Positions 1,749 through 46,903 of a DNA stretch of 50,705 nucleotides are shown in pieces. The DNA is from Chalciporus piperatus (taxonomy: Eukaryota > Basidiomycota > Agaricomycetes > Boletales > Boletaceae): positions 1 through 50,705 of the forward strand of contig JBBPTG010000178.1 of the NCBI GenBank assembly GCA_038093975.1, in the 5' to 3' direction. Numbering within the stretch: position 1 is the stretch's first letter; each line of letters begins with the position of its first letter. The translations under genes and the position numbers were made by a program. The notes under the pieces are model-generated. The model was not told where the DNA came from and ran no database searches. It was given only the letters and a program-made list of their open reading frames with translations.

Positions 1749-1998
1749 TTGGTGCATGTCTCGAGTGTTTTTTATGCACGTGAATCCCCTTGTTCTATAC
1801 TGTCCGATTGAGGCGCAAGAGCAGTAATTGTAATTGTACGATGTAGATTGTTTTGGACCCACTGTCTGTTGTAGTTTTTGATCGGTTCCATTTGGGTCGT
1901 CGACCACGTGGGATAGTCTTGTCTTGATTCTCCATAAAGCAAGGCAAAGGCAAAGGCACCTGAAATTCAGCAGACTTTGCTTGTCCTTGTCCACGACG

Positions 1999-11909: not shown

Positions 11910-14589
11910 CTAGGGTCTCTTTTTGGTAGGTGTTACTACACCATCGTCCTTGCGAGCTGGAGTCTTCCTTGGTCTACCTGACCTGCGAGCCGATGCCTCA
12001 GGGACTTTATGGAATGTTTCATCGGCCGCACCCTGGATCAAATCGTCATTTGTCAGTCAAGCTCAATATACACATATGTGCACTGCGGCTGCCCTGAATC
12101 CTTCTCTTTGCGAACTCTCTTGGTGAGCCTGTCATCGGCCGACGAATCGGCGGCTGAACCATCCTCTTCAGTCAGAGGACGTTTATTCTTCCTACCCTTT
12201 GTTGAAGTTTTCTCCTTCCTGTCATCGGTGGCACCCTGGGTCACATTGTCATTTGTCAGTCAAGCTCAATATACACATATGTCCACTTACCTTGTCAGCC
12301 TTGAATGCGGCCGGCTGCTTGTCAGCCTTGGTTCCAGCTGGCTGCCTTGAATCCTTCTCTTTGCGAACTCTCTTGGTGATCCTGTCATTGCTCGACGGAT
12401 CAGGGACTGAACCATCCTCTTCAGTCAGAGGACGTTTGTTCTCTCTACGGCCCTTTGAACCTTTCTCCTGGACCCTTGGCTTAGGAGGCTGGGGTTTAGC
12501 CTTAGACTTAGGGTCCAATGGCTGAGGCTGTAGCTTCGGCTGTGGCTTCGGCTTCGGCTTCGGCTTCGGCTGGGACTCTGAGTTAGACTTTATGAGATAA
12601 AGTTGTTATGTATTACCCCGTCAGTCCCCTGAGACATTTTCTCCTTGGATGCTGACTGTTCCTTGTAAACCTTGGACGGTTCACCTTGTTTGGTTCTGAC
12701 ATCATGCCAGCTGGAAGGGGCTGGGGTCTTTCGGGATGCAGTACGATGTTGATCGAAAGCTGGCAAATCTGTCGGCCGATTAGCATGCTCTCATCAATGC
12801 CAATGCTGCATGGACCCACTGTAGTCCCCCATTTCATTGTCTTCATCCTCCTCGGCCGATGACACATCAGACATGATGGGTACCTCTTGTGCTTTCCCTT
12901 TCCCCTTTCCCTTGGGAGTCTGCACAGAGACAAATTCATTGTCAGTGAGTTCTGGCGAGGGAGCTCTCTGACGACTCTGGAGCCGTTTGCTCTTGTCTAG
13001 CCGTTTGCTCTGGTCATGTGTTACCTGGAATCCCCCTTTCGCCCCTCCCACCTGACTCCAAGCAAATATCGGCACCTTCCTGGCCTGCTGTCTGCTCTGC
13101 CAGAAACTAAGCAAGCTTTCGACTTGCTTTTGCCTCATCTTCGATGGATCAATCATCACAAACCCTTTCGGCAGATAGTCCGCATGGATGAAGGCGGCTT
13201 GTCGTTTAGCCACCTCGCCAAATGGGACCTTGGCCTTGTGGCTACCCGACTCTAGTCCTGTCGACCTGCTCAGCCGAGATCCATTCAACATCGGCCGACT
13301 CACTGTAATGAGCAGTCAAGAAGGCTCGCACCACATCCTTCATCTGGTCAAGGTTCATCAGCTTGATATCAGGAATGATTGGAGGCTCATTCGCTGTCCA
13401 ATCAGGCTTGAGCAACTTTATCATCGCCTCAACGCTATTCTTCTTCTTCTTCCTAGTAATGACCGGCAAGCCTTCCAAAGACCCTTCATCTTCGCTCCCT
13501 TCTTCGGCTGGCCTGTCGTTCACCCCAAAGGCTGTGTTGGCCCATTTGTTCCATTTAGGGCGAATGCTGTCCCAATGTTCAAACGGCGGGCCATTGTCCA
13601 ACTCGTCGTTGTAATCGAAGCTGAATTGTATGGTTAGCTTGAGATCGACAGCGGCCGATGAAGCTAACTGACTGAGAAATAAGGACATCGTCGTCTTTGT
13701 CCTTCCATGCACTCATGACCATGATCCGCGCTCCACAGTTCTTCCACATATCCTTAGCAAACGCAAGGACCATGTTTGGAGCTTTCTTCGACGCATTGCT
13801 GATCACATAGCCATAGAGGTCAATACCAGCCGATCAATCAGACAGTCAGAGGACCTACTCAGCTTGGACTTCGGCCGACGGCTTGTCTGCATTCCATTCT
13901 TCGACCTCAGCCTCTAGTTGCTCCCTGTCGTCCTTGGAAAGTGATTCCAGGAATTTAGTGATGCCAGCCTGCCAATGCTTGATCATCCCCTGGGACCCCC
14001 GCTTCTCCTGAAACTCGTGTTCGATGATTGTCATCACCTCTTCTTTGTTCCTTCGGGATACGACTTTGCGGGCCGTCCAGCGCTGACTATACTTTGGCTT
14101 GTCCTCGGCTCGTTTGCGAGACTTGCTGTACAATCATAATGTGTATTGCTAGTGTATTGTTGCAATCAACATCTCAGGGCTTAAAACACTGGATTCACTC
14201 ACATTTTTGCGGTATTTGAAAGCCTCAAGTCCAAGCCCCTTGACAGACTCGAGCTCAGCTAACCTGCCCCACATATTCTTCATGATCAACGCCTTCTTGG
14301 CCTTCTCTGAATTTTTCCAAGGCGTGACGAACTCCGCCATAATAGCCAACTCTTCCTCTGAAAATTCCGTCAGCCGCTTCTTCGGCTGGTTCGGCCCATC
14401 TTCTGCTTGCTCAACATCCTCCTCGTTAGGGTTCTCTTCCTCGGATTCATCCTCTGCCAGAGAATCTATATTACCGTCACCTGGGTGGTCTATATCACCC
14501 GGTTCCTCAGAGTCATGATCGCTGGAGGGAAGGTCCTGCTTATCATAGGAACGTTCAGCCGTCGTTTGGGTGGCAGACTTCATGACCAT
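11910..14589 (-). CDS. Putative KDZ-associated nuclear accessory protein with acidic, NLS and AT-hook-like segments
   Basis: Minus-strand gene, head to head with the KDZ transposase (437 bp between the ATGs). Exons can be chained with consistent phase: 14589-14203 (acidic stretch EEENPNEEDVEQAEDGPNQ and the helical FSEEELAIMAEFVTPWKNSE), then segments with RWTARKVVSRRNKEEVMTII, APNMVLAFAKDMWKNCGARI, NKWANTAFGVND, VEAMIKLLKPDW and VAKRQAAFIHADYLPKGF, a basic/acidic segment TPKGKGKGKAQEVPIMSDVS, then a Pro-Lys repeat region and two near-identical blocks with NKRPLTEEDG and KRVRKEKDS, and finally RRSGRPRKTPARK, an AT-hook-like motif, ending at TAG 11910-11912. Introns are 50-60 nt with GCTAAC/GCTAAT branch sites. 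The splice near 12600-12630 is short and uncertain, so the region could be two genes (12794-14589 and 11910-12720). No known domain recognised. Its position suggests a helper for the KDZ transposon. Confidence 0.6.
12057..12470. repeat. Tandem duplication of an exon-intron unit in the accessory gene
   Basis: Two blocks about 200-250 bp apart share GAACTCTCTTGGTG, ATCCTCTTCAGTCAGAGGAC and CAAGCTCAATATACACATAT. In protein terms the block with NKRPLTEEDG and TKRVRKEKDS is present twice, together with the adjoining intron. The duplication doubles a candidate nuclear localisation signal. Confidence 0.75.
12530..12578. repeat. GGCTTC hexanucleotide repeat
   Basis: Short run of GGCTTC/GGCTGN units coding on the minus strand for an alternating Pro-Lys stretch in the accessory protein. 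Confidence 0.75.
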
Positions 14590-15025
14590 CTTTCTGTTGC
14601 TTCAAGTGCAAGAGAAACAAATCCTGGTGTCAGTGCAGTCAGGAACCTTGGTTGCTGGTCATTGGCTCCTTCAGTGTGATAGGTCCCAATGATGTCGGCT
14701 CTGGGTCAATTTATCAGACATCTAATATATGTCCGAGGACGTCGGGTGTGAAGCTGCCAATCAGACACTTGTCACCTTTCAGCCATGTCTGCATCTTACA
14801 TCGTCCTGATGACGTCGGATAAGAAGCTGTCAAGATATCGGCTAATGCATCTGATGTCAAGCGGCTGTTGTTCGGAGGAAGGATCTGATGGCTCTGACGT
14901 ACAAATGCTTCCGCGAGTGATCAAAGGCTCCGGCCCGTTCATCTTGTCACCTATGCCCCTGGGTGGCCTGAAATATGCTAACCTGCCAATGAGGCAAACA
15001 TTATCACCAAGTATCCGATTGTACA
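14590..15025. promoter_or_regulatory. Divergent intergenic region between the accessory gene and the KDZ transposase
   Basis: 436 bp between the two start codons. It must hold both promoters. A CATCTGATGTC(A/C)-like motif and GATGTCGG/GACGTCGG recur (about 14692, 14738, 14811, 14852). No convincing TATA box. The shared region would allow joint expression; that is inference. Confidence 0.4.
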
Positions 15026-18000
15026 ATGGTCAAGCCCAAGATCGAGAAGGCCACACCATGGACCCCAGTGCAAGAGGTCAAGTTTCTCAAGAAGGGATCA
15101 AAGATCAAGATGGTCAAGCTCACCCCGCCAAGCCACAAGAGCAAAAAACACAAGGCTGCTATCCCTCAATCATCACCTCAGATGCCGAGACTGGAAATGC
15201 CACTGGATCGTGGCCTCACACCAAGCACTGCTGATCGGATGTATGACGCAGCTGATGGAGAGTATGTTCTGCCTTCTTTGAAACTACCAAAACCCAAGGT
15301 ATGCTCGGCTGTGTGGGTGCCCAGATTTAATGACTGAGTGTATTTGCATAAGACCCAAAATGATTATTTGAGGGAGTCCCTGGACATGAAAGATAAATAC
15401 CTCGCTGCTTGGCTGGATATGGAGGCGCCTTCTGAGAGAATTTGCAAGATCTATCAGGGAGGCAGAGTGTATAAGTGCCAGGACTGTTTTATGCAACCGG
15501 TCTTCTGCACAGGTTGCTGCAGAAAGCAACACGAACAACACCCTCTTCATAGGGTGTTACAATGGACCGGAGATTGTTTTGAGGAATTCACACTCCATTG
15601 GGTATGTCGTTTGAAGCACTGACAAATCGGTCAATGACAGACTATTCGCACAGACAGAGTTGGAACTCCATCTGGGACATTTAGGAAGTCCCTGTCTCTA
15701 CCTCCAGTCACCTTGGAGGACGAGGCTTGGGAGGATGATGATGTTGCCCATCGGCCGGCTCATTTACAGCCTCCGGCTGAGCCAGGCTTTCTCCTGGTCA
15801 TAGATATATCTGGGATACACTATGTGAACATGAGATTTTGCAACTGTCCAGAGGCCGATGCAGCTCATAAACAGCTCTTTCTGGCTCAGCTTTTACCTTC
15901 CACCATCAAAGAGCTGAGCACTGTATTTACCTTTCGGCTGCTCGACGACTTCATCCGAGACAATCTGGAATGTGGCACCTCTCCTTCAAACTACTTTAGC
16001 AAGATTCGGCGGATAACATCCAATGCATTCCCACATTTGGTGCCTGTGGGTGGCTTTATTGCTCAGCCAAAGCCCAGCCTGTTATGATCTCTCACAACAC
16101 ACGGCGGGGACTTAGGTCACACTAGACCTTGCGAAGGATATGCTGAGTACTAAAACTTAATGATGGTGAAGTCACAAATGGATTAGACTGGGGTCTGTGA
16201 TAAGTACAGGGCTACTTATATACTATTGAGAAGTGCGCACAGACCAACAGTCAAATAAGGAAATCACAAAGGAAAAGATAGATAAGGTAAATGGGACGAT
16301 GATAAGAAAAGGTACCAGGCACGGATTAGGGTCTAGGCCATGACATCATTGCTGACTCATCTAAGTCTGGACCTTTGTCACATGACCTGATTATGTAATA
16401 GATTACATAATGCTACAGGGCCTACCGGAGCGAATAAAGATGAATCCGGCTTGACCTTTAAGTTGTAGACAAAGTCCAGTGTTTGAATACTGTTGAAGGC
16501 AAAAGTTTGAAAAGTTTTTAAATACTATAACACTATCCCCTCTCTAGGAATCGCATTCCAGGCGATTCTGCAATTTGCGCTCAGGAACCTCTGTCAGATT
16601 TTCGTATTTTTGAAACAAGGCCGAGAAATTTCCCATGGTCATGTTAATGCGGCGTGGGGCAGACGGGTGCTTTTTGTGAAAAGCTTTGACAGCTTCGGGT
16701 GCATTTGACAAATGCGCTGCCTTTTCCCATGTGTGGTCCGATATGTCCCAGCCTTTCCAATGAACCAGGTACTCTAACTGTCCTTGTTTAACCTGAGACT
16801 TCACTACGTAGTCCACTTCGTACTCCTCTTCTCCTTCTTGGTTGACTATTACCGTATCCGGAAGACGGACCGATTGCCCTTCCAACGGTTCTCGAGTCGG
16901 TTTGACTCGTTTGACGTTAACCGTGGGATGTATGTGCATGGAATTAGGCAAGTCGAGTGTAACTGCATTTGGAAGGACCTTCGTGATCTGATAAGGTCCA
17001 ATCCAGTTCTGCGTTATCTTTTTGGAAGGATAGGGAAGTTTGAGATTGTCCGTGGATAACATAACGAAATCTCCGATTTGATAATCTGGAGCTTCGGACC
17101 GATGCTTGTCTGCTTGCTCTTTCATCCGGTTCGGAGTTTCTTCTAATGCCTGCTCAACTTCTTTGTGTGCCTTTCCACATTTTTCTAAAAATGCCCCAGC
17201 CGGAGATAAATCGCCTTCAAATCCCATGCATGGGAAGTAGTTGTGTGTGATAGCGAAGGGGATCGTTCCGGTGGCGGTGGAGAGGGAGGAATTGTGATGG
17301 AACTGTGCTATCTTCAACCAATCAGCCCATTCCGTTTGTTGTTTAGCCACGTAAGCGCGGAGATACTGCTGGAGTTCTCGGTTCATATGCTCCGTTTGGC
17401 CATCGGTTTGGGGATGATAAGCGGTTGACAGCTTCTGTTCTATTCCTAGAAGGGTGCAAAGCTGCGAAGTAAACTCCGATGTGAATTGCGGTCCTCGATC
17501 TGAAACAATCGAAGAGGGAAGTCCGTGTCTACACCAAAAATTGTCTCTAACATGAAGGATTGTAAGTAATTTAGTACGTAAGGAAATAGGAACGAAAACT
17601 TTGTTTTTGTCATTTTTAAATACTATAGATCCCTCGTCAAAAATGAAGCCATCTACTGTATCATTTTTTATTTTTTCTGATTCGTTTTGTATTTCGTCAT
17701 AAATAGGTGAAGAAAGAGTAACCATATTAATGAACACAGAAGCAGGAAGTACAGTAATGTTTTTGTTATGGTCGGGATCTGCTTCTCCGTGATCTTCTCG
17801 ACGAGATAAAGCATCAGCCCTTCCATTTGTAGCACCAGGTTTATAAATAATAGAGTGATTATACTCTGAGAGCAACACATTCCAACGTGCTTGACGTGGG
17901 CTCAGAGTTTGGGGAGATTTCCAATATTCGAGATTCTTGTGATCAGTCCAAATCTCGAAATGTTCTCGACCCATTAGATAATGTCTTCATTCCTGCAAAG

Positions 18001-21000
18001 CCTGAATGACAGCTAGAAGCTCCTTGTCATAAACCGGGTAGTTCTTCTCGGCAGAACTGAAGGAATGGGAGATGAAGGCACAAGGCCTCCAGAGGCCATC
18101 ATCGCATTTAACCGAGAGCATAGCTCCCGTTGCAATATCACTAGCGTCCGTTTCTACTCTGACTTCTTTAGAGCGGTCAGGATAAGCTAAAAGCAGAGCG
18201 GTAGTGAATTGCTGCTTCAGCTTGTCAAAAGCTTGCTGTTGCTCCGGTCCCCACTGGTATGGTGTGTCCTTTTTGGTAAGGTCATTCAAGGGACGAGCAA
18301 TGTCAGCGAAACCCTGAATGAAGCGTCGATAGAAGTTAGCCAATCCTAAAAAGGACTGAACACCCTTCAACAGAGTTGGCGCCGGCCAGTCCAAAATAGC
18401 CTGCATCTTTGAAGTGTCCATCTCTACGCCTTTCTGGGAGATAACCATTCCCAGGAAATCTACGGATTCTACTGCAAAACTGCACTTTTCTGGTTTTACG
18501 TAAAGATCGTTCTCTCTGAGATGTTGCAATACGGTTTTAACTATCTCTAAGTGCTCTGCTCTAGTTTTTCCGAACGTAAAGATCATGAGATCGTCGATAT
18601 AAATAATCAAAACTCCATGTAGATCGCTAAACAGATCGTTCATCATCTGTTGAAATGTAGATGGAGAATTGGTAAGTCCGAAGTACATAACGACTGGTTC
18701 GTAAGCGCCGAATGGAGTAACGAAAGCCGCTTTCCATTCGTCGCCTTCTTTTATTCTAACATTATTATAGCCCCAACGTAGGTCCATTTTTGTAAACATA
18801 TCAGCTCCTTTGAGCTGGTCGATAAGTCCGGAAATGAGGGGAAGAGGGTAAGCATTCTTGACAGTTCCCTCATTTACGTGACAATAGTCCATAACTAATC
18901 TCTTTTTACCATCCTTTTTTGGAATAAAGAATACAGAAGATGTTTGAGGGGATTTCGACGGACGAAGATATCCTTTCGATAACTCCTTATCAATGAACTT
19001 TTTGATGTCATCTAGTTCCTGTTCGGACATCGGAATCACCCGACCCTTCTTGGGAACGAAATCAGGCTTGAGATCTATTGTGTGGTCCCACGCCTTTCGG
19101 GTAGGCATACGCTCACTCTCTTGCTCTGAGAAGACGTCTAAGTACTCGTGGAGTTCTACTGGGACTTTCTCGGTGAGCCCCGCCTCAAACACTCGACAAA
19201 TAGAAAAAGACCGATTCAAATGATAATTAACTACTTTGCACTGATCTGTACAGCGTGTGAATCGTACTTGTTTGGCTACCCAATCGATTTCAGGGTTGTG
19301 CCTTTCAAGCCAATCATAGTCGATGATCATATGATGTGTGCCAAGTACAGAAACAAAAGCGTCCATATGCTCAAAATGTCCTTTGTGTCCCAAAACAAGT
19401 GAAACCTTGTGAGTGACACCGCCTATCGCTCCCTCTGAGCCGTCGGCGTTGTACACTGGAATAGAAAAAGGAAGTTCTTCCAGTGTCAAACCATGTCGCT
19501 CACAGAACGATTTATCTATAAAAGTTTCGGTTGCGCCGGAATCCAACAGAGCGGCAAACTCCATTTTCTTCCATTGCTCCCCTTTGTCGTACATAATAGT
19601 AATAGCGAGATCCAGCTCGTTTTTCCGATTCTGATTCCTTACATGTATTTTTGATGGGATTTCTTTTTTCGAATAATTTACCTTAAGGGAATTAAGCACG
19701 AATTGTTTTACTTCTGTCGCCACGCCTTTAAGGGACGCCCTTTCAGAAGAAGAAGAAAAGTTATATATAAACGGAACATGAGGCCCGGTACTAATACAAC
19801 CATTGGGTAAACTAAGTCCATGCCTTTGAGAACCCATCCCTCTCATCGGCTGCTTTCTTTTAAAGCCTTGGCTGCCTGTGCCTTAGCTTCTGACTCAATG
19901 CGGTCGCGCCAGTACGCTTCCGCTTCTTGGTTTGTATATGCCGCTTGATGCAACATGTAACTTGTGCTGGTGGACGGACCAGCGGGATAGGGGGAAGATT
20001 GGGGAGGGTAGGGTGCAGGGATGGTACCTGCGAAGGGCATCTGCCGGTTGTCAAACAGCAGGGAAGTTTCAACATATTGTTGCGAATAAGGGTCCCACAT
20101 AACAACCTGTCTCTGACACGGCCTTTGGGGCTTTGGGCACGCGTTTGCAAAGTGACCTGGTTGGTCGCAATTGAAACAGTTTCCCCGAACGGGGGATCTT
20201 GGCATTTGCTGTGCCGACAGATCCACCGGGGCTCCACGACCTGGCTGTGTGCCAGTGGGAGTGAAACGGGGTGCTGCATACGAAGCGGGGGGACGCGGAA
20301 GAGGGCAAGATGCAATCGGGTAACGAGGGGGAAGGTACAGATAAGATGAAGAAGGCCTTGGCGCTTGAGCTGGTGCCTGGCGAACTGGTGCACCACATTC
20401 TACGACGATACGCTCGAAAGTACGACCTAGCTTTCGATAGGTATCTAGCGTATCGTGGTAGTTTTGCTCATCAACATCGGTGTTGATTTGCGCTTGGTAA
20501 TAGATTTTGTAGTCTATTGCCTTCTTCAACAGCTCTTTAGCATGAGCATCTGCTATTTCCGCTTCTGCCTTCAACAACTCAAACTCTTGGACGAAGAGAT
20601 CCACAGGTTTCCCAGCTTGCTTCAACGCTTCTAATTTCCTGAGACTCTCATGAGCGAGAATGTCTATCTGGAAATAGTCCTTGAGGAGTTTTGCGAACAC
20701 TATCCAATTTGGCCATGCTGCCAAGCCCATCGGCGTACGATCCGGGTCTGGAGCCAATGGATTTTCTTCTGTAGGAGGAGGCGGTGGCAAAAGTTCAAGT
20801 CGAGACCAGGTCTCGATCATCATTTGTGCATAGCCGGCCGCCTTTCCTTCTAGTCGTGAGAGGACAGCGAGACAGCGGACCTTGTTATTCTTCCATGTAT
20901 GGACGGACTGCCAGGCATTCACCTGCGCCCACCATAAATGGAACTTGGATTGATCATCATCCCATTTTCCCGGGTCGGCAACCTTTTTGGACACAGAGTC

Positions 21001-24000
21001 CGAATTGTCTGAAATGAGCGCCTTCAGAGCGGCGGTGAGGGCGGTGATGGGATCGACTGGATCTACCATTGGGGATTCGGGACGAGGAGTAGGAGGTGGA
21101 GAGCTTTCGGATGACGATGGAAAATGTTGTGGGGGAGATCTGTAACCTTGATCTTGTGGTTCCTGATCGTTTAACTCTTCTGACATATATCCTTACCGAA
21201 CCCTATCTTCCAAAGGTTCTCTGGGCACAACAGACACGAGGACGAAGGAAGTATTTTTTGGAGTGGAGATAATATCTGCGACGCTTATCGGAATCTTTGC
21301 AGACCTTCTGAGGAATTTTCCCAAGATCTGTTTGGATTTTACACATGCACTACTCTCGAACTTCTATTTTTCGAGCAGCAGCAAAGAACTATCATAATAC
21401 AATATATTTATTTTTGTTTTCTATTTTTTACCTCGGCGGTGCTGCCGGCTTACGTTTCTACGTATGACTTAGCCAAGGGGGCGGCAATGCACTGTTCCCT
21501 TGTCGTCCTTCGCAATTGGGCACGACCCCAATTCGGTCTTCGAACAAAAGCTAACGTACGGAGGGTAACAGAGACGGGGCACTAAAGGCTGGCCCAATAG
21601 AAGTGAAATGCCAGAAGGCGAATGTGTGACGTTACGGGTGATCACACGAACCCGAGTTGTGTCTACAGTCAGAGGGCTAGCGCGTGAGCGGACCCCAAGA
21701 CGTTTCGAACAATCAAAGAACCACTAGTGCACTATGGGGAGCAGCAACATTATCCTTATTTATGACGGCGGACAACCGTATATGCAACAGTGGACGGAGT
21801 TGTTTTCTCCTGTGTGTCACGTACGCAAACGATGCTTATAGATCTACTCTTTAGCCCTAGAGTCCAGGCGGTGTGTTCAAGTCTAATCCAAGTGTTATGA
21901 TCTCTCACAACACACGGCGGGGACTTAGGTCACACTAGACCTTGCGAAGGATATGCTGAGTACTAAAACTTAATGATGGTGAAGTCACAAATAGATTAGA
22001 CTGGGGTCTGTGATAAGTACAGGGCTACTTATATACTATTGAGAAGTGCGCACAGACCAACAGTCAAATAAGGAAATCACAAAGGAAAAGATAGATAAGG
22101 TAAATGGGACGATGATAAGAAAAGGTACCAGGCACGGATTAGGGTCTAGGCCATGACATCATTGCTGACTCATCTAAGTCTGGACCTTTGTCACGTGACC
22201 TGATTATGTAATAGATTACATAATGCTACAGGGACTACCGGAGCGGATAAAGATGAATCCGGCTTGACCCCTAAGTTGTAGACAAAGTCCAGTGTTCAAA
22301 TACCGTTGTAGGCAAAAGTTTGAAAAGTTTTTAAATACTATAACACAGCCGAAGCCGAGCTAATGGTGATAACAGAACCGATATCGAGAGCTCATCTGTG
22401 CCGCTCGACTGTGGAGGCTGTTAAAGCTGCTCAAGTGGAATGGATATGGGCATACCAAGGGGTCTCCTGGATTGAGTGCTCTGGCTTTGTTCTGTCTGGC
22501 ATGCCCTCAGCCAGGGATCAACATGGACATTAATTGTGTTGGGGGAGTGGCTCCGTGAGTGTATTAGCAACCTTGACCAATGCACTAGCATCTCATGATC
22601 CTAAAGGTGGATGATCACCCGAACCATCGTTATGGACGGCAATTTCAAGGCGGAGCATTTGCCTGACAAGAGGCCTGATGACCAAGTATGGCTGATGCCT
22701 GGGACAGGGTTTATGATAGAAAGCCAGAGATACAAGGAGTACCTTGAAGTCACAAATCATCCCGTCGAGGTATTGACATTTTGGCTTTCAAAGACATTGC
22801 TGACGGCGTCGGGCAGAAGTCGAACTGTAACAACCATCGAGCAGTCAATCAGGCCAATGCCAACCGACAAAAGTTAGAGGCCACAGGAATCGGGGGGTGC
22901 GCGTGTGCCAGACATGGATGCTTCATTCCCCATGCAGTGGTGGACTTCCAGGTAACAAGTTCGGCCGCCGGCCGAGAAACATATGCATTGACCACAATGA
23001 CAGGCAGGTCAATATGGATTATGCATTGGCACATGCATTGGAATACAACATGGCTGGCATTCTAAGGGTGATCCTCTTCTATGACATCAATTGCCAATAC
23101 ATGAAGCGGCTGAGGCTGCGGCTCAAGGGCAACGAATATGTCAAAATACCATCGGCCGTGGAGTTGGTGCCAGGGATAGGCATATGGCATGTGCATGGTC
23201 ATCAGGCTGAATGTTTCCAGAGATACGCACCCAACTTTATTCGAGGGGCAGGGCGGGTGGATGGGGAGATAATCGAAACCTTATGGGCAAACTTGAACAT
23301 TGTGTCCCCATCCACAAGGGGAATGAGCAGCCCTCACAGACGGGAATTGCTGGACTTCCAAATGGCCGACTCCAACTTTGTCAAAATGATAAGGATGGGT
23401 GGGTGACCTGCATTCTGTAATGACAGATCGCCTAACGCCTCGGATTTGTAGCTCAGAGTCTCAAGAGAAAACACAAGCAAGCAGTCAAAGGGCTTGTCGA
23501 AGCCGAGAAAGCTTTCCAAGAGTTGGATGATGGCATTCCAGAGGCGGAAAGAAATGAGTGGCAAGCTTTGGAAGATCAGGCTCACAGAAAGAGAGTGAAG
23601 GACCCGACGGCCATGGACGTCTACGAGGTGCATTTGAAAAAGGTTTGTGGCCAGTCCTACTGAGCCGAACAGAGTCTATCAAATTGATTGGAATCCCAGC
23701 ACCATCGGCCAAGGCAATCGAGCTTCAGCTGCTACAGAGTAGTCAAGGTGGCAGAAATCAGGCAGTGTCATTGATCGCACGCGGTATGCAGCTACAGGAG
23801 ATGAAACTCGGTTGGGCATCAGAGAGCCGCAGGCTTCCGATGCGGCCGACTGAACAACAGCAATTGGTGATCGCCCGAAAGAAGGAAAGGTTGGCTGGGC
23901 TTATCCATGCTTTTATTACAGAGACAGCCGCATTCTGGGGGGATGTGGGAGAGTCAAGCGATCTGGAAAACGATCTGGAGCAAGAAGCGACCAATGCGGC

Positions 24001-24793: not shown

Positions 24794-26105
24794 TCAAGTA
24801 CGGTGGACAAGATTTTCTACGTCATCTACATTGACCCAATCTACATCGAAGAGGTTCATGGCCTGTTGAACGTTCTCCCTCATGTAGTATGCCAAGCAAA
24901 CCCGACTTCCTTGAACCACAGGAACGCCATGCCGGATGATCCGCCCAGAAAATGCTACCACGGTGCCTGCAGGATAATGAAGGGTCATGCCGAGCGTAGG
25001 CAGCTCCATTGTTAAGCCAGGATCATAGTCACCAAAGGATGCCAGCAGATCTAACCCCTGTGACATAGATCCCGAGTCTCGATGCAAAGGAGTCGCTCGA
25101 TTGACCATGACCGACATGGCATTGAAGACCGAGCCCCACTGCCTCATGATGGCAGTCATCTCCGTGCGGCCGCTCGTTAAGGCCCATGTGGCCAACCTTC
25201 CCTGAGCCACCCTTGCAGATTGGTAAGCCCTGGGATGCATAACACTGTAGGCGGCCGAGAGGATTGCGTTTGGGACCAACATGTCTTCTAACCAAGCCGC
25301 AAGGCTCGGGTCTGCTAGATTGACAGACGGCGCTGGACTTGAGTTACTGGCCTGCAAGAGATCAGGTCGTTGAATTGAATAAATCAAGGTGAATTGGACA
25401 TACGTTATGAGCTTGGGGAAACCAGCCAGGCGAGATGTTCAATGACCCCTGGAATGCAGCTTCCTGGGAAAAGAGGGCATTGGCTGTCCGCCAACCATGA
25501 CGCGATGACAGCGGGGTTGTGATGGTGGATTGGAGAAGCAGTTGGATTGCAGGCAGAGTGTTATGCACCCATGACTAGGCAGCCGAGTGAGGCTTGAAAA
25601 GACACATTCAGCAGACTAGGCCTACCTGAAATTCGGAGGTGAGTGGTGATGGGAGATACCAAAGTAGGATGCGGCCAGCTTGATCTGTGACAATGCAAGG
25701 CGAATCTATGAAAGTGGTCGGAAGGGAGGGAAGCCGCTCGGAAATCCTTTGTTCGTGATCTGGATTTATGCCTGACTCGATATATCCTAGAACCGATGCA
25801 AGTTGTTCTGCTTGAATATCCAGGCGGACTGCGGCCGAACATCAGCTGCCTGAATGGCCTTTCATGGATAATAGCTTGCCTGGACGGCTGAAGGCTGAAA
25901 CCATCGCAACCACCATGCGTTCGGCCTCAATGACAGCATTAACAGGAATTTGAACATCTGGCAAGACAGGTTCGGTGGTTTGATTGCGGAAGCGCAGCAT
26001 CTCCTCCCGAAAACGTGCCTGGACATAGGTTGCCAACAGATCGTTGAGATAGAGGGCGAAGTTCGTATCAGTTAATTCCTCGGAGGTAACATGAGGTGGG
26101 TCCAT
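24794..26105 (-). CDS. TET/JBP-family 2-oxoglutarate/Fe(II) dioxygenase (one in-frame TGA)
   Basis: Enzymes of this family oxidise methyl groups on DNA bases (5-methylcytosine to 5-hydroxymethylcytosine and beyond) in the nucleus. Three exons with consistent phase: 26105-25626, 25574-25404, 25351-24794, about 402 residues. Seen: TDQAGRILLWYLP, RTANALFSQEAAFQGSLNIS with PGWFPQAHN, the catalytic NRATPLHRD (iron ligands H307 and D309), LPTLGMTLHYPAGTVVAFSG, the second His in RIIRHGV (H358), and the 2-oxoglutarate Arg in GSRVCLAYYMRENV (R367). All expected active-site residues are present. The ATG at 26105 follows an in-frame TGA, fixing the start. A TGA at 25842-25844 interrupts the N-terminal part; reversing one CpG C-to-T change gives CGA (Arg). 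The gene meets the KDZ transposase tail to tail with one base between the stop codons. Confidence 0.88.
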
Positions 26106-34158: not shown

Positions 34159-34960
34159 TCTCTAGGAATCGCATTCCAAGGCAGAGAAGTTTTCCATGGT
34201 CATCTTGATTCGGCATGGGGCGGACGGGTGTTTTTTGTGAAAAGCTTTGACAGCTTCAGGTGCATTTGACAAATGTGCTGCCTTTTCCTATGTACGATCC
34301 GATATATCCTAGCCTTGCCAATGAACCAGGTACTCTAATGGCCCTTGTTTAACCTGAGACTTGATTATGTAATCCACCTTGTACTCTTCTTTTCCTTCTT
34401 GATTGCCTTCAAATCCCATGTGTGAGAAATAGTTTTTTGTGATAGTGGAAGGGATTGTTTCAGTGGCAGTGGAAAGGGAGGAATTATGATGGAACTGTGC
34501 TATCTTCAACCAATCAGCCCATTCCGTTTGACGTTTAGCCACGTAAGTGCAAAGATACCGCTGGAGTTCTCTATTCATATGCTTCATTTGGCCATCAGTT
34601 TGGGGGTGATAAGCGGTTGACAGCTTCTGTTCTATTTCTAGAAGGGTGCAAAGCTGTGCAGGAAACTCCAATGTAAATTGCAGTCCTCAATCTGAAACAA
34701 TCGAAGAGGGAAGTCCGTGTCTACACCGAACATTGTCTCTAAATACAATAGCTAGTTCTTTTGAAGAAATTGTCTTTTTACAAGGAATGAATTTGACTGC
34801 TTTAGAGAAGCGATCTACAATAACGCAAATGGAATCAAAGCCACGTGATTTAGGAAAACCCGTGGTAAAGTCTATAGATATATCCTTCCAAGGTTCTTTC
34901 GGAACAGGAAGGGGAATTAATTTGCCACCTTGTGCAGTTGACTTTCCCTTCATGAGCGTG
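34159..34960 (-). pseudogene. Ty3-B2 integrase and chromodomain remnants
   Basis: Minus-strand pieces: VPKEPWKDISIDFTTGFPKS, KAVKFIPCKKTISSKELA and CRHGLPSSIVSD (34953-34687), then in another frame QLCTLLEIEQKLSTAYHPQT and MNRELQRYL (34671 downwards), then EEYKVDYIIKSQVKQGPLEY and LVHWQG, the start of a chromodomain. Stops and frame changes separate the pieces. Confidence 0.8.
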
Positions 34961-35147
34961 CACGGCTGACAATGTTCTACATATGTTTTGACATCCTTTG
35001 TGACACCAGGCCACGAGAAATAGCGAATAACAAGATGTAAAGTACGTCCTTGACCACCGTGACCATCAATGGGAGGATCATGAAGTATCGTAAGAAGTTT
35101 AATACATAAAGAAGTAGGTACAAAAACATGTTTATCATTTTTAAATA

Positions 35148-37265
35148 CTATAGACCCCTCGTCAAAAATGAAGCCAGTTCCAGTATTATTTTTGACTTTT
35201 CTGATTCATTTTGTATTTCGTCATAAATAGGTGAAGAGAGAGTAACTGTATTAATAAACACTGAAGCGGGAAGTACCGTAATGTTTTTGTTATAATCGGG
35301 ATCTGCTTCTCCGTGATCTTCTCGACGAGATAAAGCATCAGCCCTTTCGAGATTCTTGTGATCAGTCCAAATCTCGAAATGTTCTCGACCCATTAGATAA
35401 TGTCTCCATTCCTGCAAAGCCCGAATGACAGCTAAAAGTTCCTTGTCATAAACCGGGTAGTTCTTCTCGGCAGAACTAAAGGAATGGGAAATGAAGGCAC
35501 AAGGCCTCCAGAGGCCACCATCACATTTAAATGAGAGCACAGCTCCCGTTGCAATAGCACTAGCATCCGTTTCCACTCTGACTTCTTTAGAGCGGTCAGG
35601 ATATGCTAAAAGTGGAGCGGTAGTGAATTGCTGCTTTAGCTTGTCAAAAGCTTGCTGTTGCTCCGGTCCCCACCAGTATGGTGTGTCCCTTTTGGTGAGG
35701 TCATTCAAGGGACGAGCAATGTCAGCGAAGCCCTGAATGAAGTGTCGATAGAAGTTAGCCAATCCTAACAAGGACTGAACACCCTTCAACCGAGTTGGCG
35801 CTGGCCAATCCAAAATAGCCTGCACCTTTGACGTGTCCATTTCTACGCCTTTCTCGGAGATAACCATTCCCAGGAAATCTACAGAATCTACAGCGAAACT
35901 GCACTTTTCTGGTTTTACGTAAAGATCGTTCTCTCTGAGACGTTGCAATACGGTTTTAACTATTTCTAAGTGCTGTGCCCTAGTTTTTCCGAACGTAAAG
36001 ATCATAAGATCGTCAATATAAATAATCAAAACTCTGTGTAGATCGCTAAACAGATCGTTCATCATCTGTTGAAATGTAGGTGGAGAATTGGTAAGTCCGA
36101 AATACATAACGACTGGTTCGTAAGCGCCGAATGGAGTAACGAAAGCCGCTTTCCATTCATCGCCTTCTTTTATCCTAACATTATTGTATCCCCAACGTAG
36201 GTCCATTTTAGTAAACATATCAGCTCCTTTGAGCTGGTCGATAAGTCCAGAAATGAGGGGAAGAGGGTAAGCATTTTGTACAGTTCCCTCATTTACATAA
36301 CGATAGTCCATAACTAATCTCTTTTTACCGTCCTTTTTTGGAATAAAGAATACAGGAGATGTCTGAGGGGATTTCGACGGACGAAGATATCCTTTCGATA
36401 ACTCCTTATTGATGAACCTTTTGACATCATCTAGTTCCTGCTCGGACATCGGAATCACCCGACCCTTCTTGGGAACAAAATCAGGCTTGAGATCTATTGC
36501 GTGGTCCCACGCCTTTCGGGTAGGCATCCGCTCACTCTCTTGCTCTGAGAAGATGTCTAAGTATTCGTGGAGTTCTACTGGGACTTTCTCGGTGAGCCCC
36601 GCCTCAAACACTCGTCGAATAGAAAAAGAACGTTTCAAATGATAGTTAACTACTTTGCACTGATCAGTGCAGCGTGTGAATTTTACTTGTTTGGCTACCC
36701 AATCGATTTCAGGGTTGTGCCTTTCAAGCCAATCATAGCCGATGATCATGTGGTGTGTGCCAAGTACAGAAACAAAAGCGTCCATATGCTCAAAATGTCC
36801 ATTGTGTCCCAAAACAAGCAAAACCTTGTGAGTGACACCGCCTATCGCTCCCTCTAAGCCGTCGGCGTTGTACACTGGAATAGGAAAAGGAAGTTCTTCC
36901 AGTGTCAAACCATGTCGCTCACAGAATGATTTATCTATAAAGGTTTCGGTTGCGCCGAAATCTAATAGAGCGGCAAACTCCATTTTCTTACATTGCTCCC
37001 CTTTATCATACATAATAGTAATAGGGAGATCCAGCTCGTTCTTCCGATTCTGATTCCTTACATGTATTTTTGATGGGATTTCTTTTTTCGAATAATTTAC
37101 CTTAAGGGAATTAAGCATGAATTGTTTTACTTCTGTCGCCACACCATTAGGGGACACTCTTTCAGAAGAAGAAGAAAAGTTATATTTAAACGGAACACAA
37201 GGATCAGTACTAATACAACCATTTGGTAAACTAAGTCCATGCCTTTGAGAACCCATTTCTCCCAT
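35148..37265 (-). pseudogene. Ty3-B2 pol (protease-RT-RNase H part)
   Basis: 705-residue frame starting MGEMGSQRHGLSLP. The protease reads ALLDFGATETFIDKSF, so the catalytic DSG has become DFG (Ser to Phe). RT is complete, with MDYRYVNEGTV, MDLRWGYNNVRIKEGDEW and IIYIDDLMIF. RNase H has VETDASAIATGAVL and YDKELLAVIRALQEWRHYLM, keeping the Trp codon mutated in B1, but is deleted after TDHKNLE. The frame ends at 35148 after SKIILELASFLTRGL. Confidence 0.88.
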
Positions 37266-38259
37266 CGGCTGCTTCCTTTTAAAGCTTCGGCTGCCTGTGC
37301 CTTAGCTTCTGATTCAATGCGGTCGTGCCAGTACACTTCCGCTTCTTGGTTTGTATATGCCGCTTGATGCGACATGTAGCTTGTGCTGGTGGACAGGCCA
37401 GCGGGGTAGGGGGAAGATTGGGGAGGGTAGGGTGCAGGGATGGTACCTGCGAAGGGCATCTGCCGGTTGTCAAACGGCAGGGATTGTTCAATGTATTGTT
37501 GAGAGTATGGATCCCACATAACAACCTGTCTCTGACGTGACCTGTGGGGCTATGGGCACACGTTTGCAAAATGACCTGGCTGATCGCAATTGAAACAGTT
37601 TCCCCGAACGGGAGATCTTGGCATTTGCTGTGCAGACAAATCCATTGGGGCTCCGCGACCAGACTGTGTGCCGGTGGGAGTGAAACGGGGGGCCGCATAC
37701 GGAGCGGGGGGACACGGAAGTGGGCGAGATGCAATTGGGTAACGAGGGGGAGATAAGGATACGAAGAAGGCCTTGGCGCTGGAGCTGGTGCCTGACGAAC
37801 TGGTGCACCACGTTCAACGACGATACGCTCGAATGTACGACCTAGCTTTCGATAGGTGTCTAACGTGTCGTGGTAATTTTGCTCATCAACGTTGGTGTTG
37901 ATTTGCACCTGATAATAGACCTTGTAATCTATTGCCATGTTCAGAAGCTCTTTGGCGTGACCATCTTGAATCTTCGATTCCGCTTTCAGCAACTCGAATT
38001 TCTGGATGAAGATATGCACAGGTTTCCCAGCCTGCTTCAATCTTCTAATTTCCTGAGACTCTCGTGAGCGAGAACGTCAATCTGGAAATAGTCCTTTCGA
38101 GAAAACTGCCCAGTCTGGCCATGCCCGCATCCCCATCGGTTCACAGTCTGGTTCCACTGCTAATTCCTCTTCTTCTGGTGGTGATGGAGGTGGTAATAAC
38201 TCTAACCGAGACCAAGTTTGTATCATGATCTGGGCTTTTCCTTCGAGGCGTGAGAGAAC
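37266..38259 (-). pseudogene. Ty3-B2 gag, frameshifted and 5'-truncated
   Basis: Matches B1 gag in pieces: ALKGSSR at the end, QQMPRSPVRGN-type nucleocapsid region, TYRKLGRTFERIVVE and SRLEGKAQIMIQTWSRLELL. A frame change lies near 37750 and another near 38050. The B1 gag stop TGA has become TGG here, so gag runs on without stopping at the usual place. The 5' quarter is replaced by the LTR-C fragment at 38260. Confidence 0.8.
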
Positions 38260-41430: not shown

Positions 41431-42434
41431 TCTGACCCCAGAGGACCAGGGAACATCAGCATAGTGTGTCACATCATCTCCATTTGTTATATTTGAACAT
41501 CAAGTGCTCGATACTAACTCGAATTTTGCAAATGAAACAAAAACAAAAACACAAACACAAACACAAGGGCAGGCTAGCTTTTGCAGGATGGGCCCTCTCC
41601 TTTCCAAGCCAGCTCTGCAAACAAAAGTACATGACAATTTCTACAATCTAAAAATGCGATGGAAACAGAACACTTGATGTAGTCTTGACCAGTTGGTCTA
41701 CCATAGATCATCATCATCTTTTGAAAAAAAGTGTGAGCAGTGTGAAAGAACCACAGTGAAGACTTGCTGAGCAATTTGCGAGCAAGGTCAGACAGGATAT
41801 TAGAAACCCAACGAGCGAGGCCGCAAGCACAGGACCAAGTGTCCCGATACACCACGCCCTCGCCAAAATCCAACGAGGACACAAGCCTGTGACAGGACCA
41901 AGCGTCCTGATACCCTGTGCCCTCGGAAATCAAGCCCCTGAGAAAAAAAGAGTTAGCATCAAGGATTAAAAGTGTACTGTGAGGGTAAGCCAGCTCCCCG
42001 AATAGAGAATCTGTAGAATTGTAGAACGAAAAAAAATCAGTAATGAGACTACACACCTTAAAAGGCAACAAGCATTTTTTGATTATCTTGGTTGCGTCCT
42101 AAATAATAAAAAGGTGGTGTGCCAGGTTGAAGTGTGGTGAGGGATTGTATGTGTGAGATATGGGATTGTATGTGTGAGATATGAAGGATAGCATGAGTTG
42201 AAAAAAAATGGGAAGTTGGACTTCTCTAGCCAAAATTGTAAAGTAGAGTGTTGTGTTTGAATATCTTTGTATCACGTGATCATAAACCACATGACATTCA
42301 CGATGTGTGTCATTTTCTGAAGTCCGCATATGCTGTCAAGTACAGGACAACTGTTCTACTAGGCCACTACTACATACCCCAGGCTTGTGCCATTCAGCTC
42401 CCAGCTTCCCTTTTTCGTATCTGCTCTGATCACC
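41431..42434. other. No gene recognised; contains short repeats
   Basis: ACAAAAACAAAAACACAAAC microsatellite near 41535. At about 41825-41930 a diverged direct repeat (GGACCAAGYGTCCYGATAC ... GCCCTCG, twice). A 21-bp unit GGGATTGTATGTGTGAGATAT occurs twice in tandem at 42141-42182. The last 150 bp lead to the ATG of the next gene and should include its promoter. Confidence 0.5.
42141..42182. repeat. 21-bp tandem repeat, two copies
   Basis: GGGATTGTATGTGTGAGATAT repeated without change. Confidence 0.9.
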
Positions 42435-43226
42435 ATGGCCAAAACTAAACAGACAGCTAAGAAGACCACAGGTGGAACCGCCAAGGGAGTCCGACTGATG
42501 GGCTCGCGCGACCAGAACTTGCCAGCTCTGCTGGCTCGAAATGGCCACACTTGGCAATGCTACCAAGGAAGGTTCAGGTAAGCATAAATCTCATTCAGTT
42601 ATCTTTCTATTGACCATTGGATAGTCAGACAAGCAACAACTGGCAACCAAGTGTTCACGGTTGTCGGGGCCCAATGAACCACTGCTGTTCGACCCAGATA
42701 CCGAGGTAAGTATATTGTATATCACATCCAACTACTAACTCTATAGATACTAGTTCTGCACCCTTTGCCAAGATAATGGCATGCTCTTCAAGTGCGACAA
42801 GCCCAATTGTGACCGTGCAGATTGTAACCGCTGCCTTGAAATCCCCGCAGACCTGCTCGATAAGGTAACGGCTCCCAGGGTGTTTCGTGCGAGTGGCTGG
42901 CCTGTCGGCCAAAAAAGCGTACAGAGTTCAATCCCTACATTGTACGTTTGTGGCATTTCCTGTCATCTGATTTGAACTAACTCTGGTACAGGGTTTCACG
43001 CTCGATGGTCGTCCTGTCCTCCCCACTTTCCTCACTGTGAAAGGGAGGTTTCAAGCATCTCCCACTTTGTTGGTGCTCTCGCCCCCCACGCTCCTCATCC
43101 ACTATCGCCTCAAAACAATCACCTACTTTGGCCATTTCTCGTTAATAGAGAACCTGTTGGGCGACTACTGTACAGGCGACCGGCTTCAAGGTATCGATGT
43201 TCCTTTAGATGTCGGCAAGTCGAAAG
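42435..43226 (+). pseudogene. Histone-H3-tail-mimic protein with PHD-like Cys cluster, truncated by LTR-C
   Basis: The ATG at 42435 gives MAKTKQTAKKTTGGTAKGV, which matches the first residues of histone H3 (K4 context TKQT, K9 context AKKTTGG) with Arg changed to Lys at positions 2 and 8. Exon 1 ends at a donor at 42578. The next exons give QQLATKCSRLSGPNEPLLFD, then a Cys-rich module FCTLCQDNGMLFKC, DKPNC, DRADCNRC and CEWLAC: four Cys pairs spaced like a PHD finger with Cys in place of His. A C-terminal part follows (GFTLDGRPVLPTFLTVKGRF, LLVLSPPTLLIHYRL). Exon 1 meets exon 2 in the wrong phase and one frame change lies near 42870, so either splicing is not fully resolved or the copy is decayed. 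At 43227 an LTR ends the gene. I recall similar H3-like N-termini in agaricomycete predicted proteins, but cannot check. Confidence 0.7.
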
Positions 43227-43662
43227 TGTTGCAGCCAAAGACTTGCAGGGGGTGACTAGCCAGTTGCTAGGTCGACTCAAGTGTCTACTGGAGGCTTGGC
43301 CTAGAGTCCAATGTGAGTAACTGTGATATATTTGAGTGAAGAAATAGGTAACAGTACCTAGAGTCCAATGTGAGTAACTGAAGGTTAGCTACAATGGACT
43401 CTGGAGGAGTGTGCGCTTCAAGGTAAACAAAGGTAAACAAAGTGTCAAGGAAGCGCCACACAAGTGTAAGGTAAAGCTCTGCTAGTGCAGAGCGAAGGGA
43501 ACAACACTAGGTAATGAACCAAGTTGGTATCCTATGTAAAATGACCCGAGGAATCGATCTAGATAGGTTAGAAGTCGAATGGAGCGCTAGGTAGCGCTGT
43601 ATGAGTAAAGGGAAAAGTAAGTAAGTAGGAAAAGGTAAGTTGGGGAATCACCAAAAGCAACA
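43227..43662 (+). repeat. Solo LTR-C (436 bp) without target duplication
   Basis: Full length, TGTTGCAGCC...AAAAGCAACA. Left flank GAAAG, right flank GTTCT: no 5-bp duplication, unlike the other complete copies. This suggests that recombination between LTRs at two sites joined unrelated flanks. Confidence 0.9.
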
Positions 43663-44635
43663 GTTCTTCGGTGAGGCCAAGCTCTGTGTGAGAAAAAAGT
43701 CGGTGGGGATATCTTGATCCATGGCAGACCACGCAAGAATACTCTCAGAACTTTCCTTGGGCTGCAATGATTCCTTGCAAAGGTGAGTTATTAAGGGTAA
43801 TTGCTTGCACCCCGTCCTGACCACTTGGCCAGGTTCTATTGTGTACAAGGAGATCCAAGACGCCCTACCATATCTCTGGAGAACGCCTGACCTGGAGCAC
43901 ACTCGCCCAGAAAATGACCTTCGACAATTGGAAGGTTGGTTTTACGGAGCTCTGGAGGATGTTGGCGGGACTCTCACAGATGAGGTCCAGAATTCGATTG
44001 AAAATCGCGGACCACCCAGTGGTGTTGCAGAGACCGTGATCTTTGCCCTGCGTAGAAACCTTCAACATTTCTTTCGCCCCCTCCGTCTTGCCGTGGCCGA
44101 TTTCCAACGCTGCTGGCTCGATCTCTACACATTTCTCCAATTTGAATGGGATGTGAAGAATTGTGGCCGTAATTTTCATCCGACTTCCACTTCCCAGCCC
44201 ATCAATCCTGCGTGGATGGGCACATTTACAGATCGCAATTCTCTTGCTGTCACTCTGTGGCAGGCCGCTGTGACTTTTTGGCACATTCACAAGATATCAG
44301 ACCTGCCGAAAGACATGCGTGTCGGCAACCGTGCCGTCATGACATGGGATCCCGACATTGAAACTCATCACAATCCCGACACTCCTCACGCTCCTGTCCA
44401 CACTGGCTTTGGTGGTGAAGCCAGGGCCGAACTTTGCCGACCGATCGGCTTTCTCGTGTTAGGTGGATATGTCCCCCTCATCCCGAAGGAGACATGGGAG
44501 CACTGGGTGATGCGAATCCAGCCCCCCAGTGTCAATGCTGCCAAGCTCGCTCCAGCTCCTGAGGCTGCTCAGATCGCTCAGGATGCTCCTCTTCCCCCTC
44601 CATCTCCCATCATCTTCCAGGCCTGTCGCCCCTAG
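43663..44635 (+). CDS. Unknown protein, 5' end missing
   Basis: Unrecognised. A frame with YSQNFPWAAMIPCKG is joined over a short intron (about 43792-43841) to SIVYKEIQDALPYLWRTPDL, then LEGWFYGALEDVGGTLTDEV, RRNLQHFFRPLRLAVADFQR, LDLYTFLQFEWDVKNCGRNF, WQAAVTFWHIHKISDLPKDM and GFGGEARAELCRPIGFLVLG, a Pro/Ala-rich tail, and TAG 44633-44635. Soluble, no membrane segment. The even, stop-free reading over 790 bp and the intron make it a real coding sequence. The start is unknown because the LTR at 43227-43662 sits directly upstream; the first methionine in the joined frame is in WAAMIPCK (about 43771). Confidence 0.6.
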
Positions 44636-44835
44636 TATTTCAAAGTCCAGTTGCAGGACCGCAAAAACACTGGCAACCGAACTGAATCGACATCGGTTGC
44701 AACCGGACTGCGGTTGCCAGTTGCCAGATTTTCTGGTATGTATTGGTCTGGTTGCCAAGAAAATCTGAAACATAATAGACTGGTCCAAGACCGGTTGCAA
44801 CCGGTTGCATCACGGACTGGTTGTAGGTTATTTTT
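44636..44835. repeat. Third copy of the GGTTGCAACCGG palindromic repeat
   Basis: Starts ATTTCAAAGTCCAGTTGC and contains ATCGGTTGCAACCGGACTGC, GGTTGCCAGTTGCC, and ACCGGTTGCAACCGGTTGCA. Same motifs as at 33226 and 33736. Confidence 0.6.
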
Positions 44836-45147
44836 CACGCTGATGCGCTCCTTGTGCATCTGCGCATACCATGTATTTCTACATTTTGTGATGTTTTCCC
44901 TCATTTTAAAATGTTTTAATAATTATTTTTGGTCGTTTTCCCATGCAGATGCACCCTGGGTGCATCTGCGCGTTTTTGAAAATATTAACAACATTGTTTT
45001 TCCAGCTGAAAATGTCATATATTCACAACTAAGACCAAAATATGTATTCTATGTGGCTTGGCCATTTTGGGTGTGAATCATGACAGACAATCATCTGGGG
45101 GATACCCTACAATAAAATACACAGGGGTGGAGTGGGTGGGTGACGGG
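44836..45147. other. Intergenic region with a 25-nt perfect hairpin
   Basis: 44945-44969 is GCAGATGCACCC, a single T, then the exact reverse complement. A related half-site (TGTGCATCTGCGCAT) lies near 44853. No gene recognised here. Confidence 0.6.
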
Positions 45148-46903
45148 CTATAGCGAGGCCCAGTCATCTATATACCTCGCAAGAAGGTGGTAGTTCGGTT
45201 CACTGCCAGGGCCAAGGCCAAGGCAGTGCCGGACGAACATCTCACAAGGTACAGGGAGACCTACACATAGCTCAACGCTGCTGGTCTGATCCTTGTGTTG
45301 CTTTTGGTGATTCCCCAACTTAGCTTTTCCTACTTACTTACTTTTCCTTTTACTCATACAGCGCTACCTAGCGCTCCATTCGACTTCTAACCTATTTAGA
45401 TCGATTCCTCGGGTCATTTTACCTAGGGTACCAACTTGGTTCATTACCTAGTGTTGTTCCTTTCGCTCTGCACTAGCAGAGCTTTACCTTACACTTGTGT
45501 GGCGCTTCCTTGACACTTTGTTTACCTTTGTTTACCTTGAAGCGCACACTCCACCAGAGTCCATTGTAGCTAACCTTCAGTTACTCACATTGGACTCTAG
45601 GTACTGTTACCTATTTCTTCACCCAAATATATCACAGTTACTCACATTGGACTCTAGTCCAAGCCTCCAATAGACTCTTGAGTCGACCTAGCAACTGGCT
45701 GGTCACCCCCTGCAAGTCTTTGGCTGCAACACCTTGACGTCCGCAAGGATGGTCCTTGGAAGGGAAGCCTCCCATGGCAAGCCTCCCTTTGCAAAGTATA
45801 CCAACGAGTAGGCCAATGGCAACATGTCGTCCCTTCTTGACAGCGCTGCATGGGGCTGTCAGCACCGACTGAAGCATGGGTGGGCTGGGGAAGCACATTC
45901 TTGCCTGAGGGAATAGGAGCTTGCCCAGTAGGGCGTAATTACCTGGTCCCCGCCAAGTGTTGGGAATCTTTGCAAACTTGCCAGGTCAATGACGGAGACC
46001 TGTCTTGACGGCACTCGTTTGGCATTGAGGCAGAAGTTTTGGGGCTTTACGTCCCCATGAATGAAGCCTGCCTGGTGAATCAACAGTAACTGGTTGAGCT
46101 ACGAAGCTTTCGGTTAGCTAAGACCGTGTAGGAGCAAAAGCCACATACCATTCCGGAGACAAACTCAGCAACTGTTCGGAGCCTCAGCGGTGTTTCTGAG
46201 GGCTGTAGCTGAGCCAGGCTCAGCCCAACATCCTGGAGGACCAAGTATTCCCAGTCCCCAGCTTTGCCAAGGACAAGGACCTTTGGCACGTTGACACTCC
46301 TCAGCTCAAGCTCCCTGTATCTATGGGCTTCGTCTGACAGCAGGGGCCGGTTGTTGAACAGCCTAAGCTGAAGCTTTGCAAAGACCCTGGCTCCTTTGAA
46401 TTTGACGTCTCCGAAAACCCCTTTAACGCGTCAGCAAGCAGATTCAAGAGAGAAAAAAACGACCAACTCCCTGTGAGCTGCAGTCTCTCTGGGTCGTAGC
46501 GGGCATAGAGGGGATGCCCATCCAGAGATTTTGGAATCGAAGGGGACCAGTTTGAGGCCCGTTCAATTCTGACGAACAGTCGGCTGGGCAGAGCGTCTAA
46601 GCAGCCAAGGGGGAGGAGGGTTGTTGGAACTCACATGGCCCCTGCAATGGCCTCTATGTCAAATACAGCAGAGCTGACACACTCTTGATCGGACCCAGGC
46701 CGTCTAGTTGTCATGCTGGTGGGGGGAGGGGAGGGGCAAACCAGGTGGGTCACTCCCGTATCAACAGGGAGACCGTAGGTGAGGCTACCCAACTCATTCC
46801 TCCGCCGACCCCATGGCTTTCCGTGACAGACGGGCCAGAGCCCATCAGTTGAAGCTTCTTGATGTGGCGCTCGCCGTGATCGGGAACCTGTGTTTATGTA
46901 CAA
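45148..46903 (-). pseudogene. Casein-kinase-1-like kinase gene split by a solo LTR
   Basis: Minus strand. Exon pieces: SDQECVSSAVFDIEAIAGAM (about 46640), RLFVRIERASNWSPSIPKSL (about 46570), a segment with ARVFAKLQLRLFNNRPLLSD, VPKVLVLGKAGDWEYLVLQD and VGLSLAQL (46370-46190), then FIHGDVKPQNFCLNAK and VSVIDLASLQRFP (46070-45990), SRRDDMLPLAYSLVYFAKGG and LPWEA (about 45840), ILADVK at the LTR edge. Beyond the LTR the frame continues KDQTSSVELCVGLP, CEMFVRHCLGLGPGSEPNYH and LLARYIDDWASL to TAG 45150-45148. The SRRDD..PLAYSLVYF..G.LPW block and C-terminal layout are those of casein kinase 1. Catalytic HRD reads HGD and DFG reads DLA, so activity is doubtful. The N-terminus is uncertain. Confidence 0.75.
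45296..45731 (-). repeat. Solo LTR-C, minus orientation (436 bp), target duplication CCTTG
   Basis: TGTTGCTTTTGG...GGCTGCAACA with CCTTG at 45291-45295 and 45732-45736. Removing it and one CCTTG rejoins the casein-kinase-like frame exactly, so it is a clean insertion in coding sequence. Confidence 0.95.

Follow-up and report, generated by a model that had tools for sequence, protein, structure and literature searches.

Why should a fungal gene that lies among transposons begin with what looks like the tail of histone H3? The gene that raises this question starts at position 42435 of a 50,705-nucleotide contig of Chalciporus piperatus (JBBPTG010000178.1, assembly GCA_038093975.1), the whole of which we call the window and which is one contig (C178) of a 35.5-Mb genome. 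A preliminary description of this DNA saw here a near copy of the H3 tail followed by a PHD-like module of eight cysteines, and proposed that the tail could be modified by the host's histone enzymes or compete for H3 readers, and that the finger could bind such a tail, even its own. The observation is partly confirmed and its interpretation partly supported by the analysis below. The copy in the window is a dead relic of a longer gene, which is repeated in this genome and has relatives in other boletes, where the order of parts is an H3-like tail, an eight-Cys PHD-type finger, a domain with a predicted caspase fold and a zinc ribbon. We hold the three-part architecture of H3-like tail, PHD-type finger and predicted caspase-fold domain to be very probable.

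An H3-like tail kept in a bolete gene family

The ATG at 42435 opens MAKTKQTAKKTTGGTAKGVRL in the window copy; the genome's own H3 genes start with MARTKQTARKTTGG. When MAKTKQTAKKTTGG at 42435 is set against host H3 MARTKQTARKTTGG, residues 1-13 differ by R2K and R8K only, so that 11 of the 13 residues after Met agree and the contexts of K4 and K9 are those first described. The anchored chance of an agreement of at least 11/13 is 2e-12 for average protein composition and 5e-10 for a composition rich in K, T, A and G. The H3-like start is real and goes beyond chance. The likeness extends to H3 residue 20/21, where the counterpart of H3 14-21 reads TAK(R/G)VRL(A/M) and lies in exon 1, and it is found again in proteins of Paxillus, Boletus and Suillus as well as in paralogues within this genome.

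Three protein searches returned five bolete relatives, from Paxillus rubicundulus (P0001), Boletus edulis (P0002), Suillus subluteus (P0003 and P0004) and Suillus placidus (P0005), that is, from three genera, all Boletales. All five begin in the H3-like way, and with them the idea first put forward passes the refuting condition that it had set itself, a lack of intact homologues or of an H3-like start in them. Every query included the tail, however, and in the second and third searches scoring was limited to the 7,998 and 7,994 candidates with most words in common, so that relatives without a tail may be missed. In C. piperatus itself, where copy numbers are lower bounds, the window copy and the one on contig C388 form subfamily A; subfamily B comprises copies on five contigs (C166, C47, C36, C1 and C216), about 94-98% alike in long blocks and less so in shorter, repeat-rich ones; subfamily C is found on C149, C132 and C46 and, as fragments, on C46 and C250; and C123 carries a divergent copy. 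The C388 copy can be read as six exons and 468 open codons (the border of intron 5 is uncertain), and the C149 copy is fully open, with five exons, GT-AG introns and 517 codons, its H3-like core being split by an insert. The B copies are damaged in various ways: by stop codons, inserted sequence, an altered splice site or truncation.

The conservation of the tail was followed in eight N-termini (window, C388, B, Boletus, three Suillus and Paxillus), which amount to five lineages and are not independent rows, since the window copy closely resembles that of C388 and Suillus contributes three rows. Each N-terminus shares 11-14 of the 21 residues of host H3 1-21. T3, Q5 and K9 are retained in 8/8, and T6, A7, G12, G13, A15, R17 and L20 in 7/8. 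The other lysine of the original claim fared less well than K9, as K4 is retained in only six of the eight. R2 is lost in 6/8 and R8 in 7/8, while K14 has become Thr or Ser, and K18 Val, in every row. Small residues after the start Met and T/S at position 10 complete the resemblance to the H3 tail. The S. placidus protein starts MAHTKQTARKSNGGSAPRVNLK; its counterpart of H3 residues 3-10 is identical to that of animal H3 (TKQTARKS), and it shares APR with H3 15-17. In subfamily C the N-terminus consists of MART, a 38-residue insert and then KQTGSKASGGQAPRVDL; here K9 is also present. The first exon of C149 thus resumes an H3-like KQT...GGQAPR after the insert, which itself contains GKAP.

Beyond the tail the resemblance to H3 ends. 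No histone fold was found behind it, the H3 query matching the C388 copy through H3 residues 1-42 only, and the linker between tail and finger is barely alignable across lineages. A QQLATK motif in this linker had been taken for H3 18-23, but C388 reads EQQPATK at this place, no clear counterpart stands out in the linkers of other lineages, and the true counterpart of that part of H3 sits in exon 1; the motif is probably a chance likeness. Descent from an H3 gene is not demonstrable at the DNA level, because synonymous sites are saturated with respect to host H3 (proportion of synonymous differences, pS, 0.95). The host H3 genes have an intron inside codon 13 (C53, C88) or after Q19 (C16), near where the likeness of the mimic fades.

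A PHD-type finger and a predicted caspase fold

Eight cysteines with PHD spacing are invariant in all five finger rows compared (A, B, C149, Paxillus and Suillus), which upholds the described module for the family but not for the window copy, where only six remain in frame after a 13-bp deletion. The annotated Boletus and S. placidus models omit part of the finger. A five-row profile of the finger, run against the PDB, matched SP140 best (expectation value, E, 3e-5), followed by ATRX, AIRE PHD1, CHD4, PHF21A, Sp100, MLL, NSD3, TRIM33 and TRIM24. Several of these fingers read H3 with unmodified K4, and MLL reads methylated K4. The finger shares with those of SP140, ATRX (ADD), AIRE, CHD4, PHF21A and TRIM24/33 the Cys spacing and a GG-x-L core (profile E 3e-5 to 0.065), but differs in having a Cys where a His is usual, in remaining below the curated Pfam cut-offs (20 bits against 27 for PF21255 and 13.4 against 24 for PF00628), and in lacking the GATA-like finger that precedes the PHD in ADD domains: in none of A, B, C149, Paxillus and Suillus does the stretch from tail to finger contain two pairs of cysteines. 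Below the cut-offs, the DNMT3 ADD and PHD profiles each match two of the five rows (E 0.0013 and 0.0054), and the CK_II_beta profile matches all five (best E 0.0011). A profile of the whole protein also matched H3 itself through its first 30 positions, though only weakly (E from 0.08 upwards). Because its nearest matches are PHD fingers that read the H3 tail, it is plausible from the finger's sequence that it binds an H3-like tail, even its own.

What follows the finger had no place in the preliminary description, which likewise made no mention of the loss of K14 and K18 or of a companion gene treated below. Structure prediction gives the C-terminal domain a caspase fold, with a conserved His-Cys dyad (His209 and Cys263 in P0005) where the third and fourth core strands end; both residues are retained in A, B, C149, C123 and P0004, and full-length relatives close with the zinc ribbon. 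When compared with caspases, SAVED-CHAT, MALT1 and C11, the family would be a likely protease, distinguished by the H3-like tail and PHD-type finger fused to the domain and by the absence of a Pfam CHAT match: the curated cut-off of PF12770 was not reached in the Pfam scans, and none of the 46 CHAT matches listed for the genome, a large number for one fungus, falls on a family copy. Between A and B the ratio of nonsynonymous to synonymous change (dN/dS) is lowest in the finger (0.08), followed by exon 4 (0.14), exon 6 (0.20) and the first 22 codons (0.37), these being the parts that the comparison covered; the ratios are rough, as dS runs from 0.8 to 3.2.

The window copy and its surroundings

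The stretch 42435..43226, first described as a gene, takes in exons 1-3 and the beginning of exon 4, the gene proper being longer. Its features, with exon borders taken from the C388 copy, are the following:

41450..42434 (+): upstream stretch with pieces in common with the C388 copy, 78-89% identity (sequence comparison)
42435..42500 (+): H3-like N-terminus, codons 1-22 (MAKTKQTAKKTTGGTAKGVRLM), counterpart of H3 1-21
42435..42577 (+): exon 1, 143 nt, frame shifted by the insertion; 135 nt in C388 (comparison with C388)
42495..42502 (+): 8-bp frame-breaking insertion relative to C388 (alignment to C388)
42578..42624 (+): intron 1, predicted (GTAAGC...ATAG; identical borders in C388)
42625..42705 (+): exon 2, variable linker with the non-conserved QQLATK at 42634-42651 (comparison with C388 and other lineages)
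42754..42941 (+): exon 3, PHD-type Cys finger, 6/8 Cys in frame (comparison with relatives)
42879..42880 (+): site of the 13-bp deletion relative to C388 (alignment to C388)
42992..43227 (+): exon 4, truncated; beginning of the domain with predicted caspase fold (comparison with C388, model)
43223..45735 (.): separate element, its 440-nt inverted repeats (97%) enclosing a 282-aa open reading frame, at the cut point of the gene (sequence comparison)

Over the aligned stretch, the window and C388 copies show 729 matches, 63 mismatches and 26 gap positions. The insertion at 42495-42502 shifts the frame, so that tail and finger are no longer joined, and the deletion just before 42880 leaves the last two finger cysteines out of frame. 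The likeness to C388 then stops at about 43222-43227, where an element begins whose 440-nt inverted repeats are 97% complementary and whose 282-aa open reading frame has no Pfam match. With an insertion, a deletion in the finger and a truncation by another element, the window copy is a dead relic, and its description as a working gene has to be given up.

That the gene lies among transposons was correctly seen, and the gene itself is repeated. Five dispersed B copies, about 94-98% alike, four of them with a companion gene downstream (C166, C47, C1 and C216; the C36 copy lies at a contig start), make it behave like mobile-element cargo, although no transposase was recognised for the family and for this reason we only infer such a status. 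A diverged companion gene lies on C388 (54% identity in the longer piece), and there is none on the subfamily C contigs among the 11 matches listed. The P0003 model of Suillus continues from the H3-like protein into sequence that resembles, by eye, the companion gene. One right end is common to two insertions, and three open reading frames downstream of B copies contain no Pfam family.

Elsewhere in the window, a fragment of a KDZ transposase (22831-23406, +; Pfam E 9e-28) lies beside a TET/JBP dioxygenase fragment (24794-25438, -; E 2e-21), a known fungal pairing. By eye, open reading frames at 12794-14601 (-) resemble later ones of the B element, and those at 1882-6470 (+), 16544-21192 (-) and 34687-38076 (-) are gag-pol-like, as in long terminal repeat retrotransposons.

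A possible latch and its alternatives

What could such a combination do? Our preferred reading, which we put forward tentatively, is that of a dispersed, mobile-element-like family in which a mimic of H3 1-21, an eight-Cys finger and a predicted caspase fold work together, the tail serving as a latch. As for the latch mechanism itself, which is possible but doubtful, the protein would be a tethered-ligand switch, with its own H3-like tail seated in its own PHD-type finger until displaced by nucleosomal H3 tails or by modification of the mimic lysines; this displacement would switch the likely protease on at chromatin, where it might loosen silencing around the element. As the tail persists in the relatives, the protein would act as a switch under the control of chromatin. 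We infer H3 binding, latch, protease activity and the role in silencing alike. Several observations weigh on the other side: neither of two structural models predicts any structure in the tail, R2 and K4 are variable, the 38-residue insert splits the H3-like core in C149, and the divergent C123 copy has no clear H3-like start. The most elaborate version, where a mobile element captured the H3 tail and built a caspase that the tail holds shut by way of the PHD finger, that nucleosomes open and that clips H3 tails or silencing factors, allowing the element to escape heterochromatin, we consider unlikely. Histone clipping is the subject of PMC12269491.

The main rival, close to the idea first put forward for this locus, is a decoy: K4 and K9 of the tail would be methylated or read by host H3 enzymes and HP1-like proteins, with silencing factors either diverted from the element or recruited to the protein. 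It is the main rival because K9 is the best-kept lysine, present in 8/8 N-termini and in subfamily C, together with Q5 in 8/8 and T6 and A7 in 7/8, while the acetylation sites K14 and K18 are replaced throughout; conservation also reaches R17 and L20, past the usual PHD footprint. However, R8, which is important to several K9 methyltransferases, is retained in a single row, and the surroundings of K9 read QKPNKT in subfamily B, the one with the most similar copies, so that we regard a decoy as rather unlikely. A bait of another kind, built into a host defence or self-recognition protein in which the tail attracts an attacker or modifier of H3 and the caspase-like part acts as death effector, would agree with the joining of a predicted caspase-fold domain to a bait-like tail and with the numerous CHAT genes of this genome (the 46 profile matches); CHAT in fungal immunity is also a subject of published papers. 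This is improbable, as no nucleotide-binding or NLR domain appears among the Pfam matches, and the B copies are dispersed, alike and differently broken, as in mobile elements.

Two simpler accounts concern the tail on its own. H3 tails carry import signals, and the H3-like leader is basic, so it might serve only nuclear import or a general contact with nucleosomes or DNA; such a task would have no need for T3, Q5, G12-G13, R17 and L20, held in 7/8 or 8/8 in contrast to the variable R2 and R8, and seems decidedly unlikely to be the whole explanation. Chance or convergence without function could appeal to the saturated synonymous sites, which hide any descent from H3, and to search queries that bore the tail, but it is disfavoured as very improbable given the anchored probability of 2e-12 and a tail kept in five lineages while the linker barely aligns.

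The latch reading has a precedent in BAZ2B, in which part of the linker resembles H3 and binds the protein's own PHD finger; there the stretches are lysine-rich parts of the linker and not a near copy of the H3 N-terminus, and the abstract names the PHD and the bromodomain but no protease (PMC5663869). Fungal transposons that carry TET/JBP genes, thought to help them escape silencing, are similar in being mobile elements with a chromatin-acting gene, one such pair with KDZ being present in this window, but the gene is another one, and the words PHD and mimic are absent from the main text of that source (PMC12730594). Among the papers that literature searches brought up, none has the tail-finger-caspase architecture in its title or in the opening of its abstract, most subscription papers lying outside the library searched.

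Most known cases of histone mimicry come from viruses, with a few more among chromatin proteins. Compared with viral mimics, the likeness reported here is one of sequence only. A repeated fungal gene family nevertheless conserves about 20 residues of the H3 tail beside a finger of the H3-reading type and a predicted protease. If the latch works, a single protein would both sense chromatin and respond by proteolysis, and mobile DNA would have a new means of acting against silencing.
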